DNA of 41,941 nt from Candidatus Omnitrophota bacterium. Its GTDB lineage: Bacteria; Omnitrophota; Gorgyraeia; VGKN01. Each line of letters opens with the position of its first letter. The stretch's first letter is position 1. The stretch spans positions 1 through 41,941 of the forward strand of contig JAGVOB010000163.1 of assembly GCA_020052955.1 (NCBI GenBank), in the 5' to 3' direction. The translations under genes were made by a program, and so were the position numbers. The notes under the pieces are model-generated. The model saw nothing but the letters and a program-made list of their open reading frames with translations, was not told where the DNA came from and searched no databases. Shown one piece after another: positions 20,691 to 41,238 of the stretch.

Positions 20691-21821
20691 TTAAGGTTGT
20701 TTAAAGAATTTCTTTATGCTCGCGATTACCCGCTCGACAACATTATCTGTCATATCGCTATATAAAGGCAGGGTAAGTATCTCCTGCCAGACTTTTTCCG
20801 TAACCGGCAAAGAAACCGCATAACGTTTAAAAAAAGGCTGAAGGTGGTTAGGTATATAGTGCACCCCAGAATCGATCCCTTCTTTCTTCAAAAACTCCAT
20901 TAAGCCGTCCCTGCCTTTTTTGACTTTTACGATATAATTAAAGAAGGCTGTATTTTTATAATCGCGCTTTAAGACTTCGATCCCTTTAATCCTTTTAAAT
21001 TCCTTATCGTATATTTTAACTATCTTCTTCTTTTTCTCCAGAAACTCAGCCATTTTTTTAAACTGGGTTAATCCTATAGCCGCATTTATATTGCTCATAT
21101 GGTATCTGAAACCCAAAGTAGTGACATTATAAAACCAATCCCTCTTGTGTTTATAGCGGCTCCAGGTATCTTTATCAATGCCTAGAATCCTTTTTTTATA
21201 AATCAGCTGGGCAAGTTCATCATCGGGCGTAGTGATTGCCCCGCCCTCTCCGCAAGTGATATTTTTAATGGGGTCAAAACTAAAACAGGTCAAATCTCCA
21301 AAAGACCCAATTTTCTTTCCTTTGTAACTTGAGCCAAAGGCATGAGCAGCATCTTCTACGACTTTCAGATTATTCTTCCTGGCTATATCTAAAATAGCGT
21401 CCATATCGCAGGGCAGACCGCAGTAGTGCACCGGCATAATGGCCTTTGTCCTGAGGCTGATCTTTCTTTTTATATCCTTAACATCCGCGTTTAAGGTATC
21501 GGCGGATACCTCACAGAATACCGGCCTGGCCCCGCAGAGCATAATTGCCTGAATTGAAGCGGCAAAGGTTAAAGAAGGGACAATAACCTCATCGCCGCGT
21601 TTTACCCCTATCGCATCCAGAGCCAGATGAAGCGCGGTAGTCCCGGTATTTACCGCGATAGCATTCTTTGCCCCGGTAAAACCTTTAATTACGTTCTCAA
21701 ATTCAAAGACCCATTTTCCCAAACCCAGCCATCCGGTTTTAAAGACTTCATTGATTTCCGATAGCTCATCCTGGCCTATCGACGGCCTGGATACCGGTAT
21801 TAATTTCTCATAGTTTGACAT
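20691..21821 (-). CDS. DegT/DnrJ/EryC1/StrS sugar aminotransferase
   Basis: 376 residues from ATG at 21821, which has GGTGA 5 bases upstream and lies 4 bases after the previous stop. A longer frame from a TTG at 21854 adds eleven unlikely residues. The PLP lysine is K186 in SFDPIKNITCGEGG. NTGTTALHLAL, the EDAAHAFGS aspartate segment and a C-terminal GVHYIPNHLQPF are family hallmarks. These enzymes transfer an amino group from Glu to a 3- or 4-keto nucleotide sugar. With gmd nearby, GDP-perosamine-type synthesis is one possibility; a UDP- or dTDP-keto sugar is another. Confidence 0.92.
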   Translation of the reverse strand: MSNYEKLIPVSRPSIGQDELSEINEVFKTGWLGLGKWVFEFENVIKGFTGAKNAIAVNTGTTALHLALDAIGVKRGDEVIVPSLTFAASIQAIMLCGARPVFCEVSADTLNADVKDIKRKISLRTKAIMPVHYCGLPCDMDAILDIARKNNLKVVEDAAHAFGSSYKGKKIGSFGDLTCFSFDPIKNITCGEGGAITTPDDELAQLIYKKRILGIDKDTWSRYKHKRDWFYNVTTLGFRYHMSNINAAIGLTQFKKMAEFLEKKKKIVKIYDKEFKRIKGIEVLKRDYKNTAFFNYIVKVKKGRDGLMEFLKKEGIDSGVHYIPNHLQPFFKRYAVSLPVTEKVWQEILTLPLYSDMTDNVVERVIASIKKFFKQP

Positions 21822-21825
21822 ATTT

Positions 21826-22616
21826 TCACCATTTTTTAGAATGCAAAATTGCAACGTATTGATAAGGATGAACTGACATTTCTTTGTGTATTATAAATCC
21901 CGCTTTTCTATACAACCTTCTTAATTCTCCTCTGGTCCGTCCCCACCCATGGAATTTACCACGATATTCTTTATTAACAGGCAATTTACCAAAAATCCTT
22001 CTGACTAGAGTTGATTCCTTAGTAGGCAATATACAAAACATTGTAATCAATTTCTTTATACTTATGTATCCACCATGAAAATCTATAATCTGTCTAACTC
22101 CCAGCTTCTTCAACTTACGAAAAGTGTCTATAAATAATACATCGTCCATTACATAACTAGCGCCAAAAAAAATTACCATATCGATACCCCCCCCGCAACA
22201 TCTAATAATCCTACTATATTGTCATTAAAGAAGTCAAAAACAACCGGGGTAATGCTCGGAAATAGAAATTTAGCTTTTTTAATCATATAAGCATCAAAAT
22301 CTGCCGCTATTATTCTTGTCTTTGGAGGAACGGCGCAAGATAGTAAATACTCAAGAACGCAATGCCCTGCCCCTAAAGATAAAATACTGTTCAGTTTATT
22401 ATCGTTTATATAACGAATTAAGAAAGCGAGAGAATTTAGTTTTTCCGGATTCCTGGAAAGATACCAGTATAGAAGCAACTCTTTATTCCTGAATATATCG
22501 CTAAATTCGTTTTCGATAACATAGGCGTGTTCCTCGGCGGTAAACTGCCTGCCATTATTATCAACGTCTTTAAGTAAGTCTAATTTGTGGCTTTTAGTAT
22601 AGAGTTTTATTTTCAT
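21826..22616 (-). pseudogene. class I methyltransferase split at a G8 tract
   Basis: Two ORFs make one methyltransferase. The first (22616-22173, 147 residues) has motif I NSILSLGAGHCVLEYLL and IIAADFDAYMIKKAK, and ends DVAGGVSIW. The second (in frame from the tract; its own ATG at 22179, stop 21826, 117 residues) continues GIDMVIFFGASYVMDD and ends with a normal methyltransferase C-terminus (GFIIHKEMSVHPYQY). The break is exactly at eight consecutive Gs. One extra G, or two fewer, restores a single protein of about 263 residues. The second ORF's ATG overlaps the first stop by 7 bases, so reinitiation could also make two pieces. Phase variation, pseudogene or homopolymer sequencing error are all possible. 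Confidence 0.75.
22187..22194 (-). repeat. G8 homopolymer at a reading-frame break
   Basis: Eight Gs on the coding (minus) strand lie where the methyltransferase changes frame. A T8 run follows 14 bases further on (22165-22172). Poly-G tracts of this length slip during replication and switch surface-glycan genes on and off in other bacteria. Confidence 0.7.
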
Positions 22617-22628
22617 CTTGTTTATTTT

Positions 22629-24104
22629 TTAACTCTTTAACGCTATAACGCATTTACGGATCATACTTACGGGGTCACTGAACATTTTTTCTGATATTTT
22701 TTTCGCCAAAAGGACCGGATGCTCCGCATAAAAAGCCTTCTGTAGGTACAACCACCCCGCTTCGAAAACTTTCTTTAACTCTTCACCGTTCCAATCCTGG
22801 GTTGAAATACTGTAGCTTCCGATATACAAATCGTCAAACGAATAATCTGGCTTGATATACCCCTTATCCAGGCATATTTTATACAATTCAGATCCGGGAT
22901 ACGGGGTAGCGATGGAAATAAACGGCTGGTACATCTTAAGGCTCCTGGCAAATTTAAATGTATCCCACATCTGCTTAATAGTCTCTCCGGGCATGCCCAG
23001 TATCAGGAAGATGCCGACATTAAGGCCTACCCCCCTAGCATATTCAACCAAAGGCTTTATTTTTTTCAGGTCCAACGGCTTTTTAATCACATTCTTTAAA
23101 ACATCGGGATTCCCGGATTCAATAGCCAGGTTTAACTGATAACACCCGGCATCCTTCATTTTTCTGATAAGCGGCTCATTCAGGGAAAAAGCAGCTACCC
23201 CATTAGGCGTATCCCACTCAAAACCTAATTTCTCCTCTACCATTAAATCAAAGATTCTCTCGGCCCGTCCGATATCCAAAGTTACATTGTCATCTTCAAA
23301 CATCAATTCCTTAATGCCGTAGTCATTCTTCAGTCGCTTCATCTCGGCGATTACATTCTCAGGGGAACGCCTGCGGTATCCTCTGCCCCAGACATGATGC
23401 GCAGTGCAGAAAGTACAGCCTGCAGGACAGCCACGGGAGGTAATAATGGGGGCGAAACACCTATGCCTTCTCTTGCCATGCGAAGACTCTAAGCCAAAAT
23501 ATTTCGCAAAATTTAGCAAATGCCAAGCAGGAAAAGGCAAAGTATCCAAGTTTTCTATGAACCTGGTTTTGGGTATTATTTTAACGCTGCCGTTTATGCG
23601 CATGGCAATGCCATCAATCTCATCTATACTTTTTTGCCCTTCCATGTATTCTATTAAATCTTTCGCCGTATTTTCCCCTTCGCCCAAAACGACAAAATCA
23701 ACGTTATTATCCTGCATAACCAACTCCGACATCACCGTAGGGTGCGCTCCGCCGGCAACTGTTATAATATTAGGGTTTACCTCCTTAACCAAGGCATAAA
23801 TGCTGTGGGCATTCTTTCTTTGCCTGGAAAATAGATTATTAACCCCTACAAGATCTGGGCCAAAATCGGATATCTGCCGTTTAACTTCCTCAGGCGTTAC
23901 CCCTATTTGGATGATTTCTGGGTTAATCTCTCTCCTGTTATTCCAACCCTCTATAAGGCAATCATAAATCTTGACCTCTATCCCCATCTTCTCAAGCACA
24001 GCCGCAATATAAGCCAACCCTAGAGGCGGTAAGGGATTTATATCTAAGTTATCCTTAAAAGTAAATGCAGGAGGATTAAATAACAAAACCTTTTTTATTT
24101 TCAT
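22629..24104 (-). CDS. B12-binding-domain radical SAM protein
   Basis: 491 residues from ATG at 24104, one base after the upstream stop, with GGGAA six bases away. The upstream GTG at 24137 would add eleven residues not typical of the family, whose proteins begin KKVLLFNPP. The B12-type domain covers about 1-190 (NPLPPLGLAYIAAVLE, GGAHPTVMSE, LGEGENT). The cluster motif is C226, C230, C233 (SRGCPAGCTFC). LAIESGNPD and ILGMPGET lie in the barrel. The C-terminal 60 residues are helical (KAFYAEHPVLLAKKISEKM). Its substrate is unknown; the broken methyltransferase follows by 12 bases. Confidence 0.85.
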   Translation of the reverse strand: MKIKKVLLFNPPAFTFKDNLDINPLPPLGLAYIAAVLEKMGIEVKIYDCLIEGWNNRREINPEIIQIGVTPEEVKRQISDFGPDLVGVNNLFSRQRKNAHSIYALVKEVNPNIITVAGGAHPTVMSELVMQDNNVDFVVLGEGENTAKDLIEYMEGQKSIDEIDGIAMRINGSVKIIPKTRFIENLDTLPFPAWHLLNFAKYFGLESSHGKRRHRCFAPIITSRGCPAGCTFCTAHHVWGRGYRRRSPENVIAEMKRLKNDYGIKELMFEDDNVTLDIGRAERIFDLMVEEKLGFEWDTPNGVAAFSLNEPLIRKMKDAGCYQLNLAIESGNPDVLKNVIKKPLDLKKIKPLVEYARGVGLNVGIFLILGMPGETIKQMWDTFKFARSLKMYQPFISIATPYPGSELYKICLDKGYIKPDYSFDDLYIGSYSISTQDWNGEELKKVFEAGWLYLQKAFYAEHPVLLAKKISEKMFSDPVSMIRKCVIALKS

Positions 24105-24105
24105 T

Positions 24106-26166
24106 TTATTTCCCAAAATCAATATCGAATAAATCACTCAAAACAGGCCTATCACATACAAGATAGCTGGCCTTATCCCTGTAAGACGGGTAAACTTTAG
24201 CATTATGGGCAAAAAGCGCCAACTTCAAAAAATAATCCATAGCCCCAGTTTCAATTCCAGACTTGCTGCAATAATCTACCAGATGTCGGTTAATTAAATC
24301 TACCCCTCCTACCTTCTTTAAATATCCGCCGAAACCAATATCCCGAGTACGGCTTTTATAGTCCATAAGGAATGGATGAAAAATCAAAGTAGCCAAGTCA
24401 AAAGTCGGCAGCCCCTCCTGTTCAAAATGCTCGAAATCTACAACTCGAATCTGATTATATTCACCGCGCATTATATTAGAATAAAAATCAAAATCCCCGT
24501 GAATAGCGCACATTTTCAGCTTAAGCCCTGCAAATTCTGCCTTCCTTGTAAAATATTGACTCATCTTTCTTTTAAGTAAATCATCCTCGATACCCTGATC
24601 TTTTCCTTTTAAGCCAGCCAGATAATCACGGACAGAAAGTTCCCGGGTAAAGGTGCTACGCTGAAAATCTATCAGGAAATCAAGGCTCAATTTTACGGCC
24701 TGGTTAAATACATTACAATTGCGCCTGGAAACATTTCTAACCTTAAATGCCTGGCAATCAAGGTAATTTGTAACCAAGAAACTTATGCCGTCAATGCTAC
24801 CGTAATACAAAACAGATGGTATCTTATTCCTTAGTCCGATATCGGTTAAAAGTTTATTTACTGTCAAAAGGTTTTTAGATTCATCATCCAAAGCCTCCGC
24901 GCAACCCTTGCTGCGGGATATCTTACAAAAAAATAAAGGTTTACCCGCATGCCTATCATAAATCAGGCAGTTTAACGGTAGGCCATCACCAGACCTATTC
25001 TTTAATAAAATTGGCTCAATTCCGGCTTCCCCTGCTTTTAAAACACCCGCTTTTTTAAGCAAACTAATAATTCTGGGGTCCGAAATTTCTCCGGAGTCTT
25101 TTTTAGCGATAGCAATGAGGCTCGGAGAAAAGAATTTCATTATTGAACGCGGAACAATACTGAAAAAAATCTTCACCCGCTTGCCGCCGCAGGAAATAAT
25201 AAGTTTTTTAAAATTGGCGATTAAATCAAAACAGACAATCCTGTTGGGAGATATGTAATGAGGAAACGCGCCGTACATTTTTAGTCCGGCATACCCGGCC
25301 TTTTTTAATATATTTTTGCAGCCCATACTTGAATATATATAAGTCCTGTAACTATGCCCCTTCTTAAGCCTAGTTATTAAATCGGCTATAAACCGGGGCA
25401 GAAAAGGAACAAACCTGATATTTACATGGTCGTCAGGATAACCCATAAGGTATTGACAACCTATCCGGTTCTCTATCGCCAGAAAAAGATAGCCGCAAGG
25501 CTTAGTAACTCTTCTTAACTCTTTCAAAACCGCTACCTGCATAGAAAATGGATTCTTCGGGTATTTCTTGTTGCCTGACACCCTGTTGTTCCATTGCCTT
25601 TCCAGTATTACATCCTGTCTAAATGCCGCCCATTCCAATACTCCATTAAGTATTACTAAATCAAAATAATTATCAAGAAAAGGCAGCCTGTCCAGAGTCG
25701 CGGCCATAGGATATATATTATCAAAACCCATCTGCCGGGCGCGTATATTCAGAAAAGAAAGAGTTTCTACGGTTTTATCTACAGCAAATACCTGTCTGAC
25801 AAACTGGGCAACAGGAATTGTCAATCCTCCCCACATACTCCCGGCATCCAATACTCGCGCCTGGGCATCAATAGGCCAAATAAACTGAGCATCCGCCCTG
25901 TCAAAACTTTCAAAATGCTCCAGGTACTCTGGGATAACCGACTTCGCTGCTGACTGCCAATCATTCATTTCACGGGCCTTGTGATTCAATAGCTGCATTT
26001 TATCCCGGGAAACATTACACCAATATTCGTCATTTCTCCTAAAATCCGGGATATTGTCTATAACCGGATATTCTTTCCTACAGATAGCACAGGAAAAGGC
26101 GTTTTCCTTTTCCGTGATATCACTATGACAATCAGGACAGACTAACTTATGATTTTGAGAAAACAT
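24106..26166 (-). CDS. methyltransferase fused to an APH/choline-kinase-like domain
   Basis: 686 residues. The N-terminal zinc ribbon has C10/C13 (VCPDCHS) and C26/C29 (SCAICRKEYPV). A class I methyltransferase follows with motif I VLDAGSMWGGLT (105-116) and FAVDKT. From about residue 360 the protein changes to a protein-kinase-like phosphotransferase fold of the APH/LicA group. The catalytic loop is HGDFDFYSN (556-564, one residue longer than the usual HxDxxxxN) and the metal-binding loop is VVDFEH (D577). The kinase family phosphorylates small alcohols such as choline, ethanolamine or sugars. It is 3 bases downstream of the CDP-alcohol transferase gene, fitting a phospho-alcohol pathway (inference). 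I do not know this fusion as a characterised enzyme. Confidence 0.75.
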   Translation of the reverse strand: MFSQNHKLVCPDCHSDITEKENAFSCAICRKEYPVIDNIPDFRRNDEYWCNVSRDKMQLLNHKAREMNDWQSAAKSVIPEYLEHFESFDRADAQFIWPIDAQARVLDAGSMWGGLTIPVAQFVRQVFAVDKTVETLSFLNIRARQMGFDNIYPMAATLDRLPFLDNYFDLVILNGVLEWAAFRQDVILERQWNNRVSGNKKYPKNPFSMQVAVLKELRRVTKPCGYLFLAIENRIGCQYLMGYPDDHVNIRFVPFLPRFIADLITRLKKGHSYRTYIYSSMGCKNILKKAGYAGLKMYGAFPHYISPNRIVCFDLIANFKKLIISCGGKRVKIFFSIVPRSIMKFFSPSLIAIAKKDSGEISDPRIISLLKKAGVLKAGEAGIEPILLKNRSGDGLPLNCLIYDRHAGKPLFFCKISRSKGCAEALDDESKNLLTVNKLLTDIGLRNKIPSVLYYGSIDGISFLVTNYLDCQAFKVRNVSRRNCNVFNQAVKLSLDFLIDFQRSTFTRELSVRDYLAGLKGKDQGIEDDLLKRKMSQYFTRKAEFAGLKLKMCAIHGDFDFYSNIMRGEYNQIRVVDFEHFEQEGLPTFDLATLIFHPFLMDYKSRTRDIGFGGYLKKVGGVDLINRHLVDYCSKSGIETGAMDYFLKLALFAHNAKVYPSYRDKASYLVCDRPVLSDLFDIDFGK

Positions 26167-26169
26167 AGG

Positions 26170-27057
26170 TTAATTTTTGCCAATAGTAATATCATCTTTA
26201 TATAAATCACTTCGCGCATGCACTGTTATTTTAAGTCTGTTTAACTCCTCTTCCGCCCATCCGCCGCGGTATAAAATAAGAAGCCGCATAATAAAAATGT
26301 AGGCCTGCCAGAATAGAAAAGAAAGATAATATACCCATAAAATAGAAACCGAAAAAATAATTTCTATCACCAATAATAAACAAATTATGTCAATTGTACG
26401 CGCGTTATGCTCGAAGATAGCGTCGATTTTATTTTTTAAAAGTGTAAGCTTTGATTTACGGAGATCATTACCGATTACGTCCGCTGACTCCTGCTTATTG
26501 CCTGCGTAGGATGCGTTATATTCCTGCAGTTCATTCTTAGATAAGTAATGGTAAATAAACCGCTGTCTGGCTATGGAGTAGATATCCACCGCGAAGAAAA
26601 AAGGCGAGAGCGGACAAAGAATATAGAATAAATGGTGCACTGTGCGCCCTAAGTAAATCCCCATGCCAACCCAGAGTGCGGCCCATCCCAGATAAGCCCC
26701 ATAAGAGTCTAAAATATCTCCGGTGATTGACGTCTGTTTTAATTCCCGGGCTAGCGGCCCATCCGCCCAGTCCAGAAAAGGGCGCAGATAGAGTAACAGC
26801 ACTGCGGTTAAGACTGCCTTTTGAGAAGGAATAGCCAGAAAAACACCGGACAAAAGACCCATAAGAAGATACATAAATGTTACTGCGTTTGGCCTTATTT
26901 TTAGCTTTAGAAATAGCTGGATAAGCACAGCGCAGACGTTTACATAGACTACGGTTTTAATTTTTCGGTATGAGTATGGCTTCCAGAGGGCAATATAACT
27001 GTAATATTTATAGATATAGTCGTATTGATCCTGTTTTAATTCTCGTATGCTTTTCAT
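26170..27057 (-). CDS. CDP-alcohol phosphatidyltransferase family protein, motif variant
   Basis: 295 residues with about six membrane helices. The family motif D-x2-DG-x2-AR-x8-G-x3-D-x3-D is recognised at 96-121: LDWADGPLAR (D96, D99, G100, A103, R104), then G113 and D117. The last Asp, the proposed general base, is replaced by Ala121 (GDILDSYGAY; codon GCT). Canonical members transfer a phospho-alcohol from a CDP-alcohol to a second alcohol at the membrane. With the base missing it may use another residue, have a different acceptor, or be inactive. It is 6 bases after the nucleotidyltransferase-DUF2284 gene. Confidence 0.8.
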   Translation of the reverse strand: MKSIRELKQDQYDYIYKYYSYIALWKPYSYRKIKTVVYVNVCAVLIQLFLKLKIRPNAVTFMYLLMGLLSGVFLAIPSQKAVLTAVLLLYLRPFLDWADGPLARELKQTSITGDILDSYGAYLGWAALWVGMGIYLGRTVHHLFYILCPLSPFFFAVDIYSIARQRFIYHYLSKNELQEYNASYAGNKQESADVIGNDLRKSKLTLLKNKIDAIFEHNARTIDIICLLLVIEIIFSVSILWVYYLSFLFWQAYIFIMRLLILYRGGWAEEELNRLKITVHARSDLYKDDITIGKN

Positions 27058-27063
27058 TTTTCG

Positions 27064-28314
27064 TTACCCTACCAGCAAAAGGCCTATACGGTAGAATTTA
27101 TTGGCCACGGGAAATTTCAGTTCTATGCCTAATTTTGCCACAGTCTTTACCACATCAACACCTACAGCTTCCAGCGGTATCCGCGCAAGATTGGGGAACC
27201 GGCACTTAGCGGCGCATTCATTGCATAATTTACAAGAACCTCCGATAAAAGACTGCGCGAAATGATAACTATGAGTAAACGCGAATTTCTCCAAATCCAA
27301 AAGAATGCGGTGTAATTTAACCGTAGATTCCTGTTTTATCTTTTTCCAATCTTCTCCTATTGCAGATTGTAATGCCACGATTAACCCTTTCTTGTAGCTT
27401 AAAAACATTTTTTGATAGTCAAGTTTCGGTATGTGCGGCGGACAGGTTAATTTTTTATTGTGATTAACGCAGTTATAGCAAAAGAGTTTCACCTTGGGAT
27501 CAAAAACGATATCCTTAGGATTAATAGGTAATACCTGTGTGGCCCCCAGGCTAAGAGCATGCTCCTTTAGTTTATCAAGCGCGCTAAAGATGTTGTTCAT
27601 TCTCTTAAACTCTTCAATACTATCAACCTCCATCCAGTTGAATCCATAAGTCGACACTGCGCGAAAAATATACTTAGGCAAAAGCTCATCAATGACATCT
27701 TCGTAAATAATCTTTCTCTTACCCATCTTCACCAGTTCACCCATTCTCTTTATAAAATCATTATTGCCTGCGCTTATCTTACCGATACCGATTGAACGGC
27801 CAAAAATCCCCTTGGCCGATAAAGGAACGTTTCTTCCTATGCGCACAATGCGGTTATGCGCAACTTTGACTTTATTCTCGCGCGGACTGACGTTATAATC
27901 AAAATCGACCAAAAGAAGGTTTTCCTTTGAACTCTTTGAATGGATAAGCTTCTCCAGTAATTCTTTTTCGCAGATAATATCACCGTCTATCAGGAGAAAA
28001 GGCTTAAGCAGGTATTTACGGCACAACCACAAAGAATATATTACGTTTGTAGTTAAAAAATCTTTATTCTCTATGCAAATTATCTCCCTAAACCATACTC
28101 TTTTTTTAATCTCCTTTAACTCCTTAAAGACCAGCTCTTTTTTATGCCCAACAACAATTATGATCTTTTCAATTTTTTTTAAGGATACCAGTTTTTCTAC
28201 CATATTTTCCAAGATAGTCTGATTATCTGCCAACCGGAAAAGGCACTGGTGCATCTGATTAGTATAAGGTAAAAGCTTCTTTTCCTTTCCCGCTACAAGT
28301 ATTATGGCATTCAT
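27064..28314 (-). CDS. degenerate nucleotidyltransferase fused to a DUF2284-like Fe-S domain
   Basis: 416 residues. Residues 1-240 are an NTP-transferase fold similar to LicC-type cytidylyltransferases (FLTTNVIYSLWLC, LLIDGDIICE about 108-115). The signature loop is altered: the usual AAGxGxR...PK is here AGKEKKLLPY...MHQ, so the G-x-R and active lysine positions hold E11, K13 and Q23. From about 245 the sequence matches the DUF2284 pattern: SLGATQVLPINPKDIVFDP, then C279, C282 and TCPPHIP (C291). It ends with a ferredoxin-like C361-x2-C364-x2-C367-x3-C371 and EAVGVDVVKT. DUF2284 is a predicted metal-binding family without a settled function. The gene lies between a canonical paralogue and a CDP-alcohol transferase. 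Confidence 0.75.
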   Translation of the reverse strand: MNAIILVAGKEKKLLPYTNQMHQCLFRLADNQTILENMVEKLVSLKKIEKIIIVVGHKKELVFKELKEIKKRVWFREIICIENKDFLTTNVIYSLWLCRKYLLKPFLLIDGDIICEKELLEKLIHSKSSKENLLLVDFDYNVSPRENKVKVAHNRIVRIGRNVPLSAKGIFGRSIGIGKISAGNNDFIKRMGELVKMGKRKIIYEDVIDELLPKYIFRAVSTYGFNWMEVDSIEEFKRMNNIFSALDKLKEHALSLGATQVLPINPKDIVFDPKVKLFCYNCVNHNKKLTCPPHIPKLDYQKMFLSYKKGLIVALQSAIGEDWKKIKQESTVKLHRILLDLEKFAFTHSYHFAQSFIGGSCKLCNECAAKCRFPNLARIPLEAVGVDVVKTVAKLGIELKFPVANKFYRIGLLLVG

Positions 28315-28316
28315 AG

Positions 28317-29015
28317 CTATTTTTTTGTAATCTTCTTTAGGCTGACCAGGTCTTCGGGGGTATCAATCTCATGCCAGAAGAATGAATTAATGAGTATAGG
28401 CTTAACCCCGAACCCTTTGCCGGCCATTTCGCTTACCACATCTTCATACCAATCATTCCATCGTCCTTGCTCCAGCCATTTTTCTAACATCCTGCCGAAC
28501 AATTTAAGGTAGTTATAACTTATTTTTGTGATCCCTGAATATACCCCAAAAGTCAACTTATCAGGAATATCCATAGCCATTTTTATTATCCTGCCTCTAT
28601 TAAGCCTTACCCGATATCCGCCTTTCTCCCTCTGCTTTACCAATACCGAAAGATTAGCCTTGTCTTTAATTATCTTCTTTAATAACGCGGATTCCAGAAT
28701 TATATCGCTGTTCATAAAAATCAAATCGCCATTCCACTTGCTCATAGACAACCATACCGAGATAATACTGTTGGAATGGGCGTAAAAGGGGTTGAAAATA
28801 ACCTCAACCCCTTTAAATCTTCGGCAAAATAATTTCACCTTCTTGGCCTGAAACCCGCAAACTATCAGGATATCTTTTATGCCGCAGGAATTTAAAAGCC
28901 CTATCTGCCTTTCCAAGAGAGCCTTACCGCCCACCTTTACCATGCACTTTGGCAAGTTTTGTGTATATGGCTTCAAGCGTCTGCCCATACCCGCGGCAAG
29001 TATTATCGCCTTCAT
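28317..29015 (-). CDS. LicC-like nucleotidyltransferase
   Basis: 232 residues, a complete single-domain NTP-transferase. AAGMGRRLKPYTQNLPK (7-23) has the glycine loop, Arg13 and the PK lysine (K23). SNSIISVWLSM and MNSDIILE are close to the NN-x-YSL and D-containing motifs of CTP:phosphocholine cytidylyltransferase-like proteins. The C-terminal part carries FFWHEIDTPEDL. It should join a phosphorylated alcohol or sugar to CMP (or another NMP), releasing pyrophosphate. It overlaps the HisC-like gene by 4 bases (ATGA), a tight coupling that suggests shared substrate flow. Confidence 0.85.
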   Translation of the reverse strand: MKAIILAAGMGRRLKPYTQNLPKCMVKVGGKALLERQIGLLNSCGIKDILIVCGFQAKKVKLFCRRFKGVEVIFNPFYAHSNSIISVWLSMSKWNGDLIFMNSDIILESALLKKIIKDKANLSVLVKQREKGGYRVRLNRGRIIKMAMDIPDKLTFGVYSGITKISYNYLKLFGRMLEKWLEQGRWNDWYEDVVSEMAGKGFGVKPILINSFFWHEIDTPEDLVSLKKITKK

Positions 29016-30073
29016 CGGGAAAAATATCCTTTCAATGCGCGTAATACGATCTCCATTTTCTCCTTAGGCCCGGTGGTAATCCGCAGATAATCCCGCAGGA
29101 ACGAATCCTCCGAAGGCAGGTAAATCAATACGCCTTTTGATTTTAAATAAGCATATACGTCTTTTCTCTTACCGTATACCTTTGCTAATACAAAATTAGC
29201 ATGCCCTTTAATAATTTCTAAACCCATCCTCTTTAAACCTGCCGCGAGATACTTCTTGCCTTCAGATTCAACTTTAACATAATTCTGGATATGCTTTGGA
29301 TGGTCAAGGATATATTCCGCGACTTTTAAAGCAAAGGTATGCGCCTCATACATCGGCCTAACTTTAAAGAAAGCCTCGATGGTATCCGGATGGCTTACCG
29401 CATATCCCAGACGTATGGATGCCGCACCTAAGGCCTTGGAAAATGTTCTCAGCACTATGAGGTTATCAAAACGTTGTGTCAATTTGAGGACAGTATGAGG
29501 ATAAAAATGAAAATAAGCTTCATCAATTAACACCGCTATACCCAACCGATTAGCCTTACGGATAATCTCCCTTAAAAAATCGAGCTCTAATACAGTGCCG
29601 GTCGGGCTATTAGGATTAGCCAGAGCGATAAGTTTAGTTCTTTTTGATACCGATACCGTCAATTTCTTCTTATCAACGCTGAAATCATTTTTAAAACCAA
29701 CTCCTATTTTTCTTGCTCCAAAAATCTTAATATATATATCATACATTGCATAGGTGGGATCCAGAACCACAACCGAATCCCCGGGTTCAACAAAAACCTC
29801 AAAGGCGCTTTTAATACCGCCATCGGAACCATTGGTAAGCAATATCCGTTCCTCGGGAACCCCCAGGTATCCGGAAAGTTTCTTGTAAAGGCGGCAAGGC
29901 TCAGGATACATTGAAAACTCCTCGGGCCTGATAGAGCTATATATGCAGGACAACGCTTTTTTATCCCAATCCAGCATACCTTCATTCTTATCCGCCCGAA
30001 CATAACCTATCCGCGATTCATTAACTCTGGGGAAACGATTTAATTTCCTTATTCTTTCTTTAATTTTTATCAT
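29012..30073 (-). CDS. HisC-like PLP-dependent aminotransferase or decarboxylase
   Basis: 353 residues, fold type I. TNGSDGGIKSAF (80-91), ANPNSPTG (152-159), the pyridine-binding D184 in LIDEAYFHF, and the Schiff-base K213 in RTFSKALGAASIRLGY are all present. Closest by eye are histidinol-phosphate aminotransferase and the related CobD/CobC-type amino-acid phosphate decarboxylases. No other histidine gene is nearby, and a nucleotidyltransferase overlaps it by 4 bases. A role in making an amino-alcohol phosphate for activation by CTP is therefore plausible (inference). A simple HisC duplicate remains possible. Confidence 0.8.
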   Translation of the reverse strand: MIKIKERIRKLNRFPRVNESRIGYVRADKNEGMLDWDKKALSCIYSSIRPEEFSMYPEPCRLYKKLSGYLGVPEERILLTNGSDGGIKSAFEVFVEPGDSVVVLDPTYAMYDIYIKIFGARKIGVGFKNDFSVDKKKLTVSVSKRTKLIALANPNSPTGTVLELDFLREIIRKANRLGIAVLIDEAYFHFYPHTVLKLTQRFDNLIVLRTFSKALGAASIRLGYAVSHPDTIEAFFKVRPMYEAHTFALKVAEYILDHPKHIQNYVKVESEGKKYLAAGLKRMGLEIIKGHANFVLAKVYGKRKDVYAYLKSKGVLIYLPSEDSFLRDYLRITTGPKEKMEIVLRALKGYFSR

Positions 30074-30083
30074 GTATTTAAGT

Positions 30084-31613
30084 TTATTTTAATTTATTTA
30101 AATGCAATTTAGCTTTTACAAGGGCAGCACAGTAGTTAACACACTCCTTTATCACCTTGTTAATCTTATCTCTCGAAAAGTATTTTCTATAAAATAGAAA
30201 TATTGTGCAACTCCATACCACTATCTGAGTAAACAAGGAAACAACCCCTACCAACCAGAAGCTCCTTACTTCGCGTATTAGATAGTTATGAAAGAAAGAA
30301 AAAGCTACGCTTAATACGCAAGGAATGCCCGCCAACTTTATAAAAACAAGCAATTCTTGTTTGTTCTCGAATATATAGCCTCGGACAAAATAGTAATTAA
30401 TCAGGGTGACTAAACCCTGAACCGAAACATTTATTAAGGCGATGGCTTTAATCCCGTATCCCATACGTATAGCAGTTAGATTAAAAATAACATTTAAGAT
30501 AAACCCGGCGATATAACTATTCAAGGAAAGAGCTTGTTTATTCACAGACGAACATTGCAAGATTAAAGCCGGGATTATAAGAAGGGCAATCATATAAAGA
30601 TTGCAGGAGAGTATAATAAATATTGCTATGCTGTCTATAAATTTTCTGGTCACTAATTCTGTCAGGAAATAAAAACAAATTTGTAAAAATGGTATCATTA
30701 TAGCGGCAGCTAACGCTAGATAAATAATTATCCGTTTGCTATCGTAGAATATATGCGCACGATGCTGGGCCTGGCCTGCCTTAGTCCAAAGGACAGGGGC
30801 AAGTACGTTTCCGAAATCCCTTAAGAATATCGAACCGAGGCTGGTATAGACTGCGGCATACGAATAGATGCCTAATACATTAAGGGGCAAAAGGCTAGCG
30901 ATGGTTGTTCGGTCGATAAGCTGATACCCCCAATAGACTAAGGCCAGTGAACTAAAGGTAATACCTACCTTAAATAACCGTTTAGTCTCTATCCAATCAA
31001 ATGAAAAACGGTAATTAATCCTCCCCTTTTTCCAGTAGTATTGGGCGGCAAGAAAAGCCCCTATAATAGGCGCAAGCAATACCGCATAAATTTTCAGCCA
31101 GTATATAAAAATTATAACTGCTGAAGTCGTAGCCACAGCCTGGATTAAATCGGATTTAGCCACCAGGTTAAACCTCTGGCGCACAAAATTCACCCCTCGC
31201 CAACATGCGGCTAAATGACTTATGGCAAAGGTGCATGCGGTCAAAAGAAAGCCTATTTTTAAAGTTCGGTCGGTAAAAAATAAGGAAGCGGCTGTGATAA
31301 CCGCAAACGGCAGCAAAGAATATAGCAAATCTGAAGTAAGAGAAATATTTTGCAACCGGATAGCCTCACTATCATTATTATTTCCTATTAGATGCGCCAT
31401 TTGCCTATTACTTGCTGATAATAACCCCGGATTAATCAGGGCAGCATATGTAGACCATAAACCTAAAAAACTTATAATACCGTAATCCTTGGGAGCCAGA
31501 ACCATAGCTATAATAATTGACTTAGGTATAGATAAAATATTAGAAATAATGCCTACCAGATTAAATTTTCCGGATTGCTTTAATATATCGACTACGCTAA
31601 TTTGCTTTGTCAT
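30084..31613 (-). CDS. Wzx-like polysaccharide flippase (MOP superfamily)
   Basis: 509 residues, hydrophobic throughout with about 12-14 membrane helices. It starts with a short amphipathic stretch and FNLVGIISNILSIPKSI, the first helix typical of RfbX/Wzx exporters. A charged QAQHRAHIFYDSKR loop separates two halves of similar layout, as in MOP transporters. It should move undecaprenyl-linked glycan across the inner membrane. It overlaps the upstream transferase gene by 17 bases. No Wzy polymerase or initiating sugar-phosphate transferase was recognised in the window, so those would be elsewhere. Confidence 0.85.
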   Translation of the reverse strand: MTKQISVVDILKQSGKFNLVGIISNILSIPKSIIIAMVLAPKDYGIISFLGLWSTYAALINPGLLSASNRQMAHLIGNNNDSEAIRLQNISLTSDLLYSLLPFAVITAASLFFTDRTLKIGFLLTACTFAISHLAACWRGVNFVRQRFNLVAKSDLIQAVATTSAVIIFIYWLKIYAVLLAPIIGAFLAAQYYWKKGRINYRFSFDWIETKRLFKVGITFSSLALVYWGYQLIDRTTIASLLPLNVLGIYSYAAVYTSLGSIFLRDFGNVLAPVLWTKAGQAQHRAHIFYDSKRIIIYLALAAAIMIPFLQICFYFLTELVTRKFIDSIAIFIILSCNLYMIALLIIPALILQCSSVNKQALSLNSYIAGFILNVIFNLTAIRMGYGIKAIALINVSVQGLVTLINYYFVRGYIFENKQELLVFIKLAGIPCVLSVAFSFFHNYLIREVRSFWLVGVVSLFTQIVVWSCTIFLFYRKYFSRDKINKVIKECVNYCAALVKAKLHLNKLK

Positions 31614-34399: not shown

Positions 34400-35452
34400 T
34401 TAAACTGTTAGGAAAATACTTTTAATCTTTTTGATCTTCTGTATATCTTCTTCGCTGATATTTCTTATTATATCCCCCATCCCATCCGCTATTCCTAAAC
34501 ATCTTGTCGGTTGAATAATATTATCTACTATAACATCCCCGTGCCTACCCATCATTCCACCCGCAACAATGTTTATCCCTTCCACTGTCCTTCTGCCAAT
34601 GACCTCACTAAGCAACTTTTCGGTTGCTAGAATATTCGCAACAACACCCTCAAAACCCGCCCTTATGTCCAATCTTAATACGGTATGGCCATGCCTCTCT
34701 GCAAAGGCAATTGCATGTTTAAAAATACTGCCTTTACCTACATCGACAATTAATGCATTTTCATTTAACAGTTTTACCATCTCGGTATTAACCGCCGGCT
34801 CACCCGCTGTAGCCGCAATAAGAATGTCAGCGTTCTTCACAGCTTCCCGGTTTGATTTAAATGCCTTCACAATAGCTAGAGTCTGCGCAGGTTTAATTAA
34901 ATTTAAGGCTTTTGCAATAGCAAACGCTTTTTTGTAATCTCTCCTCGCAATATTAACCCAAGCACCTCTTTCAACCAAACGAAGAGCAATTTTGGAGCCT
35001 ATATTCCCTACGCCTATAATGGCTACTTTTTTCCCGCCTATCTTATATACAAATTGCGCCAGCAGCATATCAATAGCATCTACTGTAAGATCATTAGCTT
35101 TGAATGTAAAAACCTTGGATTTCTTAACTGTTTCTTTAACCAGGCGTTCTATATTACCGCCTATCCAATCTCCATATTCACTCTGGATTATCTTCTTCTC
35201 GGCATCAACTAGAATATATTCCACCTTGCCGTCTACATAACCGGCAATCTCTTTGGCTTGTTGCGGATTATATACAATCGCATTACCGGCAATGGCAAGC
35301 CTAGTTACCCTTAGGGGCGGGAAATATAAGCCTTCTCTATCGAGCTTTCTAGTATTGGCGATAGTAAACATTGTATGTTTGCCGCCAACAGCATGATGCT
35401 TTATATCGCGTAAGATTAAATCTATTTGCTTCTTAAGATCTTTTTTAGACAT
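34400..35452 (-). CDS. Rossmann-fold dehydrogenase-like protein of unknown substrate
   Basis: 350 residues. The N-terminal 120 residues match nothing I know (FPPLRVTRLAIAGNAIVYN). After LTVDAIDMLLAQFVYKI comes an NAD(P)-binding motif VAIIGVGNIGSKIALRL (143-159). ADILIAATAGEP and ALIVDVGKGS follow, as in shikimate, alanine or ornithine-cyclodeaminase-like dehydrogenases. A C-terminal glycine-rich IVAGGMMGRHGD is striking. The 8-base overlap with the FAD-NeuB gene suggests linked function in nonulosonate formation, for example reduction of a keto or imino intermediate (inference). No confident family name. Confidence 0.65.
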   Translation of the reverse strand: MSKKDLKKQIDLILRDIKHHAVGGKHTMFTIANTRKLDREGLYFPPLRVTRLAIAGNAIVYNPQQAKEIAGYVDGKVEYILVDAEKKIIQSEYGDWIGGNIERLVKETVKKSKVFTFKANDLTVDAIDMLLAQFVYKIGGKKVAIIGVGNIGSKIALRLVERGAWVNIARRDYKKAFAIAKALNLIKPAQTLAIVKAFKSNREAVKNADILIAATAGEPAVNTEMVKLLNENALIVDVGKGSIFKHAIAFAERHGHTVLRLDIRAGFEGVVANILATEKLLSEVIGRRTVEGINIVAGGMMGRHGDVIVDNIIQPTRCLGIADGMGDIIRNISEEDIQKIKKIKSIFLTV

Positions 35453-37820
35453 CGTTCCAGGTAATAGGATGGTCTTTAGGCACAGCCCGTTTTACTTTCC
35501 TTCCAATGACTAAATCAATATACTTAGGCATAATCCCATGGCCGGGGCCTTTTATGTCTATCTTATCCGAATCTAGGAGCTCGCCGATAGCCAAATCCTT
35601 AGCGGCAAAAATACTCTTTCTGAATTTATTAATCGTTTCAAATTCAGCCGGCCGAATAACTTTTACTCCATCTCCTAGTATCTGTAAAATTTTCGAAGAA
35701 TTACTTACCAATTCAGCCATTTCGTCAGGGTCAGAAGACAGTATATGGTCCGGTCCTTCCAAGTACTTATTAAGCGTAAAATGCCTCTCGATAACATTAG
35801 CGCCCAAGCCAATAGCCAAATTAGCAGTCAGTAGACCGATACTATGGTCAGAATAACCAACAGGCAACTTAAATGCCGTTTTTAATGTACTGATAACTTT
35901 CAGGTTTGCATCTTCCATATGCATAGGATAATCAGATACACAATGCAAAAGTATAACATTTTTATTCCCGGTTTTGGTGATAACCTCTAAGGCCTCTTCT
36001 ACCATAGCTAAATTAGACATGCCTGTAGATAAAATAATCGGTTTCTGCTTAGAGGCTGTATAACTTAAGAGCCTATGGTTAACTAAATCAAAGGAAGAAA
36101 TTTTATAGCATCCGACCCCCACCATCTCAAGAATATCCACATCTTCTTCGCTGAAGGGGGTTGAAAAAAAAGGAATACCATTTCTTTTTGAATATCGATA
36201 TAGTAACTTAAATTCATTTTCCGTAAATTCGAGCCTGGAAAACATATCATAATAGTTCTCTTCCATGCTTAATGTCTTTTCAAAATAATTTGCGCTTTTT
36301 ACCTTAGAAGATACTCTTTTTTCGGCTTTAAAAGTTTGAAACTTAACCGCATCACAGCCTGCTTCTTTGGCCTTCCGTATCAATTCTTTGGCTATCCTGA
36401 TGTTTCCATTATGGTTTAAGCCTGCCTCTGCGATGATAAGCGGTTTATAGCCATCCCCCACTAACTTACCCAAAATATTAACTACGCTGTTAAAGCCAAA
36501 TTTATACCCTTGCCTGATATTTATATTCTTAGAATAGTAATCACTTGAAATCAATTCCGCAAGGTCAACGCCTTTGGCAAACAATATCTGGATATCCGAG
36601 TAATGAAACTCAGCTAAAGAACCACAATTATATAAGTTTATCAATTTGGATAAAGCGCTGTTTATGTTTGATAATTCAACTTCGTAGCCATAGAAATACT
36701 TCGGATATACTTCATCAATACGCTGTATCATACCAGAGACAAAATCATCGCGGTTTACAAAACCTAATTTCACGAATTGAAGTAAGGTTTCTGCGATTAA
36801 ATGGCTGTTTTTATTTTTGTATAACGGCTCATCCTTATCGCATGCGATTTCAAAACAAAGGGTTGTGGTATCTTTAGAGAGGCCTTCGGAGGAAAACCTC
36901 TTCTGTTCGGTAACCCTATGGAAAATTATGTTAGGGTCATCAAAATATAACCAGTCAAACTTATCTTGAAAAACCAACGGTTTTTTAAATTTCAGAAAAA
37001 CAAAAATGATACTCCGGAACTTCAAATTATTTTTTATTCCCAAAAACCGCGTAAGATGATTTAGGGGAACTGTAGAGATTAAAATACTATCTTTTAAATC
37101 AATGGTCCTTTTTTTATTTATTACTAAAGATAAAACACTGTCTTCATTAGTATTTATCGAAGTGACCTCGGAATTAAGCATTATGTTCCCGGACATCTTC
37201 ACTATCTTTCTTTTCAGGACATCTACAATCTGCCCGCTGCCCCTTCGGCATACTGCACACCATTGGTTACAATAAAAGGCTTCGTATTTCTTTCTTAATT
37301 CTATTCTCTTGGGCGCCCAATTCGTTATCATATCTGCTGTTTTCATGCCCCATATTTTTTTGGGATAATCCTCATAGAATAATTTTTGCAGGGTTGGGCC
37401 AACCAGGGATTCGACATATTTCTTATAATTTGTGGCTATTGCCCTCTTAAAAGGATCAACAGCCTCTAACTCCTTGCGGATTTGATTTTGCAGGTCTGCG
37501 GGAAACTCCTTTATAGTGGAAACGGCTAAAGGATAATCATAAAGTTTGCCGTTTTTGAAATTCTTGCACCAAAACTGTTTCTCCAAAAATATATCCGGAG
37601 ATAATTTCTTCCAATACTTAACAATATTTTTGTTAAAAGAATGGAATAATTTCGGACCAAGATCCACATAATCCCCTTCAAAATCCAAAGTCCTTAAAAG
37701 ACCCCCGGGATTGCCAAGTTTTTCAAGAATAGTCACATTGATGCCTTTTTGCAATAATTCATATGCGGCAACTAAACCGGTGATGCCTGCACCAATTATG
37801 TAAACGTTTTTATCTTTCAT
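35445..37820 (-). CDS. neuB: FAD oxidoreductase-NeuB (nonulosonate synthase) fusion
   Basis: 791 residues without a frame break. Residues 1-about 445 are an amine-oxidase/UDP-galactopyranose-mutase-like flavoprotein: VYIIGAGITGLVAAY (6-20), LEKLGNPGG, YVDLGPKLFH, and CGSLAEFHYSD late in the domain. From 459 the sequence is NeuB: PLIIAEAGLNHNGN (460-473), AVKFQTFKAE, FFSTPFSEED, YKISSFD, YSDHSIG (656-662, H659), IERHFTLN (H680), EGPDH. Residues about 733-791 form the SAF domain (RKSIFAAKDLAIGE, GPGHGIMP). NeuB condenses phosphoenolpyruvate with ManNAc or a related 6-carbon sugar. The flavin domain may oxidise, isomerise or reduce a sugar in the same path; its role is unknown. It lies 1 base after the Gfo/Idh gene. 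Confidence 0.88.
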   Translation of the reverse strand: MKDKNVYIIGAGITGLVAAYELLQKGINVTILEKLGNPGGLLRTLDFEGDYVDLGPKLFHSFNKNIVKYWKKLSPDIFLEKQFWCKNFKNGKLYDYPLAVSTIKEFPADLQNQIRKELEAVDPFKRAIATNYKKYVESLVGPTLQKLFYEDYPKKIWGMKTADMITNWAPKRIELRKKYEAFYCNQWCAVCRRGSGQIVDVLKRKIVKMSGNIMLNSEVTSINTNEDSVLSLVINKKRTIDLKDSILISTVPLNHLTRFLGIKNNLKFRSIIFVFLKFKKPLVFQDKFDWLYFDDPNIIFHRVTEQKRFSSEGLSKDTTTLCFEIACDKDEPLYKNKNSHLIAETLLQFVKLGFVNRDDFVSGMIQRIDEVYPKYFYGYEVELSNINSALSKLINLYNCGSLAEFHYSDIQILFAKGVDLAELISSDYYSKNINIRQGYKFGFNSVVNILGKLVGDGYKPLIIAEAGLNHNGNIRIAKELIRKAKEAGCDAVKFQTFKAEKRVSSKVKSANYFEKTLSMEENYYDMFSRLEFTENEFKLLYRYSKRNGIPFFSTPFSEEDVDILEMVGVGCYKISSFDLVNHRLLSYTASKQKPIILSTGMSNLAMVEEALEVITKTGNKNVILLHCVSDYPMHMEDANLKVISTLKTAFKLPVGYSDHSIGLLTANLAIGLGANVIERHFTLNKYLEGPDHILSSDPDEMAELVSNSSKILQILGDGVKVIRPAEFETINKFRKSIFAAKDLAIGELLDSDKIDIKGPGHGIMPKYIDLVIGRKVKRAVPKDHPITWNDV

Positions 37821-40401: not shown

Positions 40402-41238
40402 TTAAGATTGTAAAGAGCGTTTTTCATACTCAAAAAGGCTTAGGTAACCGAGCGTTGAATGCGCCCTTTTGCGGTTGTAGTACATCTCAACGTACTCAAA
40501 GATCCTTCTTTTTGCCTCTTCCCGTGTTTTGAACTTTGTCCGGTGAATCAGCTCCACCTTAAGCGTATGAAAAAAACTCTCAGCTACGGCGTTATCCCAG
40601 CAGTCGCCTTTTTTGCTCATGCTGCCTACGAATTCATTTTGGGCCAATAACGCTTTAAAATCATTAGCGGCATATTGAACACCCCTGTCAGAATGATAAA
40701 CAAGCCCTTTAGGGGGAGAACGCCGTAGGATTGCCTGTTTTAACGCCTGAAGCGTCAAAGTCTCGGCAATTGTTTTATCCATAGCAAGCCCAACGATTCC
40801 TCGTGAAAACAAATCGAGTATCGCCGCCAGATAGAGCCAGCCCTCATACGTCCAAATATAGGTTATATCCGATACCCAGACGGCGTTCGGTTTTTCTACC
40901 GAGAAAATCCGGTTCAAGACATTAGGCCACACAGGATAATCATGCTTCGAGTTTGTTGTCACCCTGAACTTGCGCCTCTGTATGGCAACCAGGTTACTAA
41001 GGCGCATAAGGCGGGCGATACGATTCAAAGAACAAGGAATCTGCTCTTTATTACGCAGTTCGTTCCATACCCGCGGGCTGCCGTAATTACGGTTATTATC
41101 CCAGAATACCCGCCTTATTTCAATGAGCAGATTGTCGTTATTGATTCTGTTTAGGCTTTTAGGCCTTGTCTTAAACGCGTAATAACCGCTCCTGGATACT
41201 TCCACCGCGCGGCACATCTTCTCAAGCGGAAAGACCAA
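40402..41238 (-). CDS. IS3-family transposase OrfB (DDE integrase)
   Basis: 278 residues counted from a TTG. The real product is probably OrfAB made by frameshifting, since this frame is open upstream through TDRERFEFIDLNR into orfA. It has the MCRAVEVSRSGYYAF start region and HTH_21-like segment, then the rve catalytic core. The three acids lie in WVSDITYI, YHSDRGVQ and AVAESFFHTLK. The C-terminus is RAHSTLGYLSLFEYE. It performs the cut-and-join steps of transposition. Confidence 0.93.
   Translation of the reverse strand: MVFPLEKMCRAVEVSRSGYYAFKTRPKSLNRINNDNLLIEIRRVFWDNNRNYGSPRVWNELRNKEQIPCSLNRIARLMRLSNLVAIQRRKFRVTTNSKHDYPVWPNVLNRIFSVEKPNAVWVSDITYIWTYEGWLYLAAILDLFSRGIVGLAMDKTIAETLTLQALKQAILRRSPPKGLVYHSDRGVQYAANDFKALLAQNEFVGSMSKKGDCWDNAVAESFFHTLKVELIHRTKFKTREEAKRRIFEYVEMYYNRKRAHSTLGYLSLFEYEKRSLQS

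Follow-up and report, generated by a model that had tools for sequence, protein, structure and literature searches.

A HisC-like enzyme and a LicC-like cytidylyltransferase as a candidate unit for a CDP-activated amino-alcohol phosphate in an Omnitrophota surface-polysaccharide cluster

What might five closely packed genes contribute to the surface polysaccharide of a Candidatus Omnitrophota bacterium (assembly GCA_020052955.1)? The genes lie at positions 24106-30073 of contig JAGVOB010000163.1, the whole of which (41,941 nucleotides, hereafter the window) was analyzed, and a first-pass annotation had proposed that together they make, activate and transfer an amino-alcohol phosphate, perhaps N-methylated. 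We find this proposal favored for a HisC-like enzyme dependent on pyridoxal phosphate (PLP) and a LicC-like cytidylyltransferase, plausible for a CDP-alcohol phosphotransferase-like protein (hereafter CDP-OH) and unsupported for the two remaining fusion proteins. Our reading, to which we give a probability of roughly 0.55, is that the HisC-like and LicC-like proteins form a two-enzyme unit for a cytidine diphosphate (CDP)-activated amino-alcohol phosphate, which the CDP-OH protein would transfer to a lipid or glycan of the surface polysaccharide. The open reading frames and their Pfam matches (E values below) reproduce the positions, spacing and domains annotated before, the APH-like kinase being recognized by its motif and its homologues:

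29012-30073, minus strand: HisC-like PLP enzyme, 353 amino acids; Aminotran_1_2, E=1e-44
28317-29015, minus strand: LicC-like cytidylyltransferase, 232 amino acids; NTP_transf_3, 2e-12, and NTP_transferase, 1.5e-9
27064-28314, minus strand: fusion of a nucleotidyltransferase (NT) with DUF2284, 416 amino acids; NTP_transferase, 7e-9, and DUF2284, 7e-34
26170-27057, minus strand: CDP-alcohol phosphotransferase-like membrane protein, 295 amino acids; CDP-OH_P_transf (PF01066), 7e-11
24106-26166, minus strand: fusion of a Zn-ribbon/S-adenosylmethionine (SAM) methyltransferase with an APH-like kinase, 686 amino acids; Methyltransf_11, 3e-10

Following transcription from the HisC-like gene to the methyltransferase-APH gene, the reading frames are joined by a 4-base overlap and then separated by gaps of 2, 6 and 3 bases. 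Taken alone this tight spacing has little meaning, because the 42-kb contig consists almost entirely of a surface-polysaccharide cluster read in one direction; most of the approximately 35 open reading frames of the window are co-directional with comparable gaps, so that such packing is not peculiar to the five genes. Gene neighborhoods were compared in 384 genomes of the host's class (labels beginning with G) and, across phyla, in 80 loci from GTDB genomes, 79 of which were usable.

The product of the first gene scores below the curated cut-offs of both enzymes that it resembles, namely 254.1 bits against 276.55 for the HisC model TIGR01141 and 147 bits against 290.55 for the CobD model TIGR01140. 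The same genome possesses a true HisC (C80, 369 bits) as well as two true CobDs above the cut-off (C145 and C50, 310 and 301 bits), one of which sits in a cobalamin cluster with CbiB, CobS, CobT and CobU. Both a plain HisC and a plain CobD were rejected on these grounds; the first-pass annotation had made its reading depend on the enzyme not being a plain HisC. By sequence, the protein belongs to a HisC-like subfamily that stands apart from both HisC and CobD. Within the class, the HisC-like group scores at least 185 bits (most members aligning from their first residues) versus at most 162 bits for ordinary HisC, and 92 subfamily members stand apart from eight housekeeping HisCs in a phylogenetic tree (SH support 0.97), in which, however, members were picked by similarity to the window protein, biasing the tree toward a separate subfamily, and one putative housekeeping sequence (L106) that fell within the subfamily was omitted. 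In this tree the window enzyme is sister to a natural CTP_transf_3-HisC fusion in genome G249 (SH 0.92), its nearest relative. The residues of the PLP site are intact in the alignment (N153, D184, Y187, S212, K213, R221 and R331). The residue equivalent to R322 of Escherichia coli HisC is lost (Y318 here), which a small initial alignment had suggested as diagnostic; it was dropped as a marker, since K, R, H or G predominate at this position among the 92 sequences. The enzyme would form an amino-alcohol phosphate, and its sequence favors neither decarboxylation nor transamination for this reaction.

The association of genes for this subfamily with cytidylyltransferases is conserved across phyla. 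Within the class, 16 of the 23 HisC-like genes (in 22 loci) have a CTP_transf_3 cytidylyltransferase no more than five genes away. The GTDB loci belong to Omnitrophota, Nitrospirota, Chloroflexota, Bacteroidota, Pelagibacteraceae and many Firmicutes, and the link of their HisC-like genes to CYTIDYLYLTRANSFERASES is seen as a cytidylyltransferase at most four genes away in 66 of the 79 usable loci. The partner is of the CTP_transf_3 kind in 31 loci, of the TagD type in 22 and LicC-like in 14 (one locus having two kinds), while LicD is present in 18 of the 79. The two genes are adjacent or fused in 37 of these loci. In 2000 random placements confined to the same loci the mean was 21.4 and the highest value 34; many of the loci come from related Lachnospiraceae and are not independent. 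Two fusions of cytidylyltransferase with HisC-like enzyme were found, one in G249 (equivalent to L112/L134) and the other in L136. Operons of Firmicutes combine LicD, HisC-like and LicC-like genes with overlapping ends (e.g., L160), and the TagD-type partner in this phylum is fused to a GFO/IDH/MocA oxidoreductase domain (e.g., L164:9082-10440, L170:3955-5271 and L191:6180-7517). In Cohnella (L199:5621-9044 and L207:5662-9041), LicD, LicC-like, methyltransferase and HisC-like genes follow one another consecutively, and the sole PDB match of the methyltransferase between LicC and HisC is phosphomethylethanolamine N-methyltransferase (E=6e-6), a gene row that suggests de novo phosphocholine-like decoration.

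The product of the second of the five genes groups with these LicC proteins. Its best PDB relatives by sequence are LicC (1jyk, E=2.9e-17) and PntC (6pd1), and its AlphaFold model (predicted local distance difference test, pLDDT, 96) retrieves the same LicC structure at the top of a Foldseek search (template modeling score 0.87/0.88), followed by PntC. In the tree of LicC-like proteins, the window sequence clusters (SH 0.84) with all of the HisC-linked LicCs from Firmicutes, as well as with the L075 sequence and the LicC that neighbors LicD in G228. The window protein and the HisC-linked LicCs have a pocket signature in common, namely NxD, NPFYxxxNSIxS(L/V)W and W(W/Y)E, in which N-x-D replaces D-A-D of LicC, E-S-D of PntC and Y-S-D of phosphoramidate-type LicCs. 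N102 of the window protein occupies the position of PntC E104, and the pocket glutamate of the type that handles 2-aminoethylphosphonate (AEP) is therefore absent. This grouping and the shared signature are, in our view, the best evidence that the HisC-like and LicC-like proteins of the window may cooperate. From its sequence and modeled fold, the enzyme would combine cytidine triphosphate (CTP) with an amino-alcohol phosphate to yield a CDP-amino-alcohol. Its earlier description as a canonical LicC-like nucleotidyltransferase is borne out by sequence, tree and Foldseek, with methionine (M148) in place of a conserved lysine.

The transfer step would fall to the CDP-OH protein. Eleven further genomes of the class (G036, G056, G066, G082, G091, G103, G116, G120, G133, G143 and G215) have a LicC-like match within 400 bases of a CDP-OH match, and the host assembly (2.38 Mb, 95% complete) contains no match to LicD (PF04991) or to phosphoenolpyruvate (PEP) mutase (PF13714), as the first-pass annotation had supposed. 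Because the LicC-like/CDP-OH pairing recurs and LicD is not detectable in the genome, it is reasonable to infer that the CDP-OH protein acts as transferase in the place of LicD. Proteins of this family carry the motif DxxDGxxAR-8-GxxxDxxxD; despite the change at its fourth Asp that is considered below, the window protein matches the family model above the cut-off. Two other Omnitrophota loci (L076:9110-16482 and L077:5454-12624) present adenosine phosphosulfate (APS)-kinase, LicC-like, class I amidotransferase and pyruvate phosphate dikinase (PPDK)/PEP-utilizing genes beside CDP-OH, plus a methyltransferase by weak similarity; these are modules which we take to resemble those of the Cj1415-Cj1418 phosphoramidate type.

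The N-terminal NT domain of the NT-DUF2284 protein (residues ~1-242) precedes a DUF2284 domain predicted to bind metal (~264-414). In the NT domain, AGKEKKL replaces AAGxGxRL and HQ replaces PK. With both the nucleotide-binding loop (GxGxR) and the lysine of PK lost, the NT half is probably not an active nucleotidyltransferase, and the earlier idea of a second working enzyme of this kind is not borne out. The fusion is found nowhere else among the class genomes. In G228, also of the Omnitrophota (L261:3650-7330), separate genes encode a class V aminotransferase, DUF2284, a LicC-like protein, DUF2284 and LicD, in this order; since the DUF2284 genes flank the LicC-like gene beside LicD, the link between DUF2284 and LicC may be real. 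The fusion protein is perhaps accessory. Mutual complementation of the two nucleotidyltransferases, of which one has lost the nucleotide loop and the other the lysine, is a speculative idea.

The methyltransferase-APH fusion probably constitutes a separate glycan-modifying unit together with genes downstream of it. Its APH half gives no Pfam call, either alone or within the full protein, and was recognized by the motif IHGDFDFYSN...VVDFEHF and by homologues: a fused one (L254) matches APH (E=1.4e-9) and Choline_kinase (1.6e-8), a fused homologue reaches E=0.002 against choline kinase in the PDB, and a split one (L062) has an APH gene (E=0.001) directly after the methyltransferase. Relatives of the methyltransferase occur in 18 other class genomes; several are fused to an APH-like gene or have one after them. 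In G065, CDP-OH, methyltransferase and APH are three genes in the order of the window. No LicC-like or HisC-like gene adjoins such relatives in the neighborhoods examined. Moreover, G057 (L262:3267-8396) has the methyltransferase, one further gene, a radical-SAM protein (666 bits to that of the window) and then DegT (357 bits). Methyltransferase(-APH), a B12-binding radical-SAM gene and DegT succeed one another likewise at window positions 20691-26166, where the reading frames of radical-SAM and methyltransferase-APH share 32 bases. Given these neighbors, the LicA-like or N-methylating role previously suggested for the fusion is an unsupported guess. A WbdD-like role, combining terminal kinase and methyltransferase, was considered as another candidate, but no solved relative appeared at useful significance; the AlphaFold model of the fusion (pLDDT 54) was not used.

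From these elements we infer a three-step route, including the nature of the alcohol and of the acceptor. The HisC-like enzyme would supply a small amino alcohol as its phosphate ester: phosphoserine would be decarboxylated to ethanolamine phosphate, or else dihydroxyacetone phosphate would be transaminated to serinol phosphate. The LicC-like enzyme would then join this ester to CTP, giving the CDP-activated form, from which CDP-OH would move the phospho-amino-alcohol to a lipid or lipid-linked glycan, the role of LicD in Firmicutes. The NT-DUF2284 protein would be an accessory or altered subunit, whereas the methyltransferase-kinase fusion would perform a separate modification. If decoration precedes export, the modified glycan on its lipid carrier would be moved by a flippase encoded directly upstream of the HisC-like gene. 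More tentatively, and with considerable doubt, we suggest that the window exemplifies a widespread and undescribed route, in which HisC-like enzymes would draw amino-alcohol phosphates from central metabolism, cytidylyltransferases of three families would activate them and interchangeable transferases (LicD, or CDP-OH lacking the fourth Asp) would attach them, with N-methylation in some lineages leading to phosphocholine-like decoration independent of choline.

Several observations weigh against the proposed route. The full set of five genes was found nowhere else in the class genomes and GTDB loci searched; as far as searched, it is specific to the host genome, and a five-gene unit is not supported. 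No CDP-OH gene lies within four genes of a HisC-like gene in any of the 80 GTDB loci, and the nearest Omnitrophota relatives of the HisC-like enzyme pair with a family of cytidylyltransferases other than LicC-like. The support of the LicC-like grouping is moderate. The GFO-type domain on the HisC-linked TagD proteins would be superfluous for a route to ethanolamine. In the CDP-OH protein the motif reads DWADGPLAR-8-GDILDSYGA, with the fourth Asp changed to Ala and all other positions kept. Finally, most relatives carry K or R at the position of M148 in the LicC-like protein (codon 28574-28572); this position is equivalent to Lys153 of PntC, the replacement of which by alanine reduces activity below 10% (PMC6697681).

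Some of these features could also belong to a different pathway. If the HisC-like enzyme aminated a keto compound and its neighbor were an ordinary sugar-phosphate nucleotidyltransferase, the product would be an amino-sugar or amino-acid derivative to which CDP-OH is unrelated. Most Omnitrophota relatives of the HisC-like enzyme do lie beside CTP_transf_3 genes and some beside GFO oxidoreductases, as in sugar pathways, and an archaeal sugar-1-phosphate nucleotidyltransferase is the NCBIfam model that scores highest with the LicC-like protein, even if its 82.6 bits are far below the cut-off of 292. We judge this scheme unlikely, since sequence and Foldseek place the protein with LicC and PntC and since LicD adjoins the HisC-linked LicCs. 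Amidation of the amino-alcohol phosphate onto a uronic acid, in the style of Campylobacter jejuni HS:2, with the LicC-like enzyme activating something else, would agree with the use of Cj1436/Cj1437 products for amidation rather than as CDP derivatives (PMC12409886) and with the asparagine synthase-like gene of the window; the conserved adjacency of HisC-like and cytidylyltransferase genes and their fusions make it quite unlikely.

It is improbable that the module is partly decayed and makes little or no decoration. Three of its proteins have indeed lost conserved residues (the fourth Asp in CDP-OH, GxGxR and PK in the NT half, and the lysine replaced by M148), but every reading frame is intact, as is the HisC-like active site, and the LicC model is confident; furthermore, the CDP-OH change is shared by a full-length homologue in G065, and variation at this position is found in most CDP-OH proteins encoded in the glycan clusters of this Omnitrophota class. 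An inositol-phosphate compound made by the LicC-like and CDP-OH proteins in the manner of IPCT-DIPPS, the HisC-like enzyme being a bystander, seems very improbable: the three relevant proteins match the fused IPCT-DIPPS model weakly (67.9, 40.6 and 22.6 bits; cut-off 580) and 4mnd and 4jd0 are among the Foldseek matches, but LicC is the best fold match and inositol-phosphate synthase (PF07994) was not detected in the genome. Equally slight are the chances of a phosphonate (AEP) or phosphoramidate head group. Although PntC is the second-best solved relative of the LicC-like protein and two relatives possess phosphoramidate-type modules that include related LicC and CDP-OH genes, N102 differs from both PntC E104 and the tyrosine of phosphoramidate-type LicCs, PEP mutase is unmatched in the genome, and no glutamine-kinase or amidohydrolase genes were seen among the window genes scanned. 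The two-enzyme unit for a CDP-activated amino-alcohol phosphate is the reading that we retain.

The surroundings of the five genes are those of a surface-polysaccharide cluster, with glycosyltransferases, a NeuB fusion, a CMP transferase, a GDP-mannose dehydratase-type gene and a flippase:

30084-31613, minus strand: polysaccharide flippase, Polysacc_synt_3 (PF13440, 1e-8), directly upstream of the HisC-like gene
35445-37820: flavin amine-oxidase-like domain fused to a NeuB sialic-acid-synthase domain
9723-11618: asparagine synthase-like gene
40402-41238: transposase with rve integrase core, at the cluster edge

No relative was present in the viral collection searched.

Phosphocholine, phosphoethanolamine and similar groups alter the charge of bacterial surfaces and their recognition by host lectins and phages, and the known bacterial routes draw choline from the environment, rely on phospholipid donors or produce phosphonates. 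A HisC-like enzyme feeding CDP activation would, if our reading is true, be a self-sufficient source of phospho-amino-alcohol and would account for the presence of HisC-like genes in polysaccharide clusters of gut Firmicutes. The core of HisC-like and LicC-like genes recurs in these Firmicutes with another attaching enzyme, pointing to a decoration route for which we found no published description in the open-licence literature, nor any account there of a HisC-cytidylyltransferase-LicD module.

How does the putative unit compare with established systems? LicC/LicD and PntC follow the logic of CDP activation (PMC10434233, PMC6697681). As in the Lic-1 system (LicA-LicB-LicC-LicD), a cytidylyltransferase of LicC fold would provide a CDP-activated phospho-alcohol for a surface glycan; unlike Lic-1, no LicD is detected and CDP-OH is present instead, no LicA-like gene is clearly a choline kinase, and the precursor would apparently derive from a PLP enzyme rather than from uptake. 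With regard to LicB, no choline transporter appears among the Pfam-scanned window genes, no search aimed at LicB having been made. The partnership of an NTP_transferase-fold cytidylyltransferase with a CDP-OH enzyme recalls IPCT-DIPPS, from which the window differs in its separate genes, LicC-type fold match, lack of inositol-phosphate synthase and scores far below the NF041135 cut-off. The PLP enzyme shares fold and PLP-site residues with HisC and CobD while remaining under both curated cut-offs. By its proposed function rather than its sequence, it may be likened to Cj1436, which converts phosphoserine to ethanolamine phosphate, and Cj1437, which yields serinol phosphate, PLP enzymes dedicated to amino-alcohol phosphates for the C. 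jejuni capsule; their products are amide-linked to glucuronic acid and dephosphorylated, without CDP activation (PMC12409886). In Pnt phosphonyl tailoring, the partner of PntC is a class V aminotransferase and PEP mutase is required, whereas the window enzyme is HisC-like and of class I, and PEP mutase was not detected in the genome; the same association of a cytidylyltransferase with a PLP enzyme is nevertheless seen in both, and the fusion of PntC with AEP transaminase (PMC6697681) finds its analogue in the two fusions among relatives of the window proteins.

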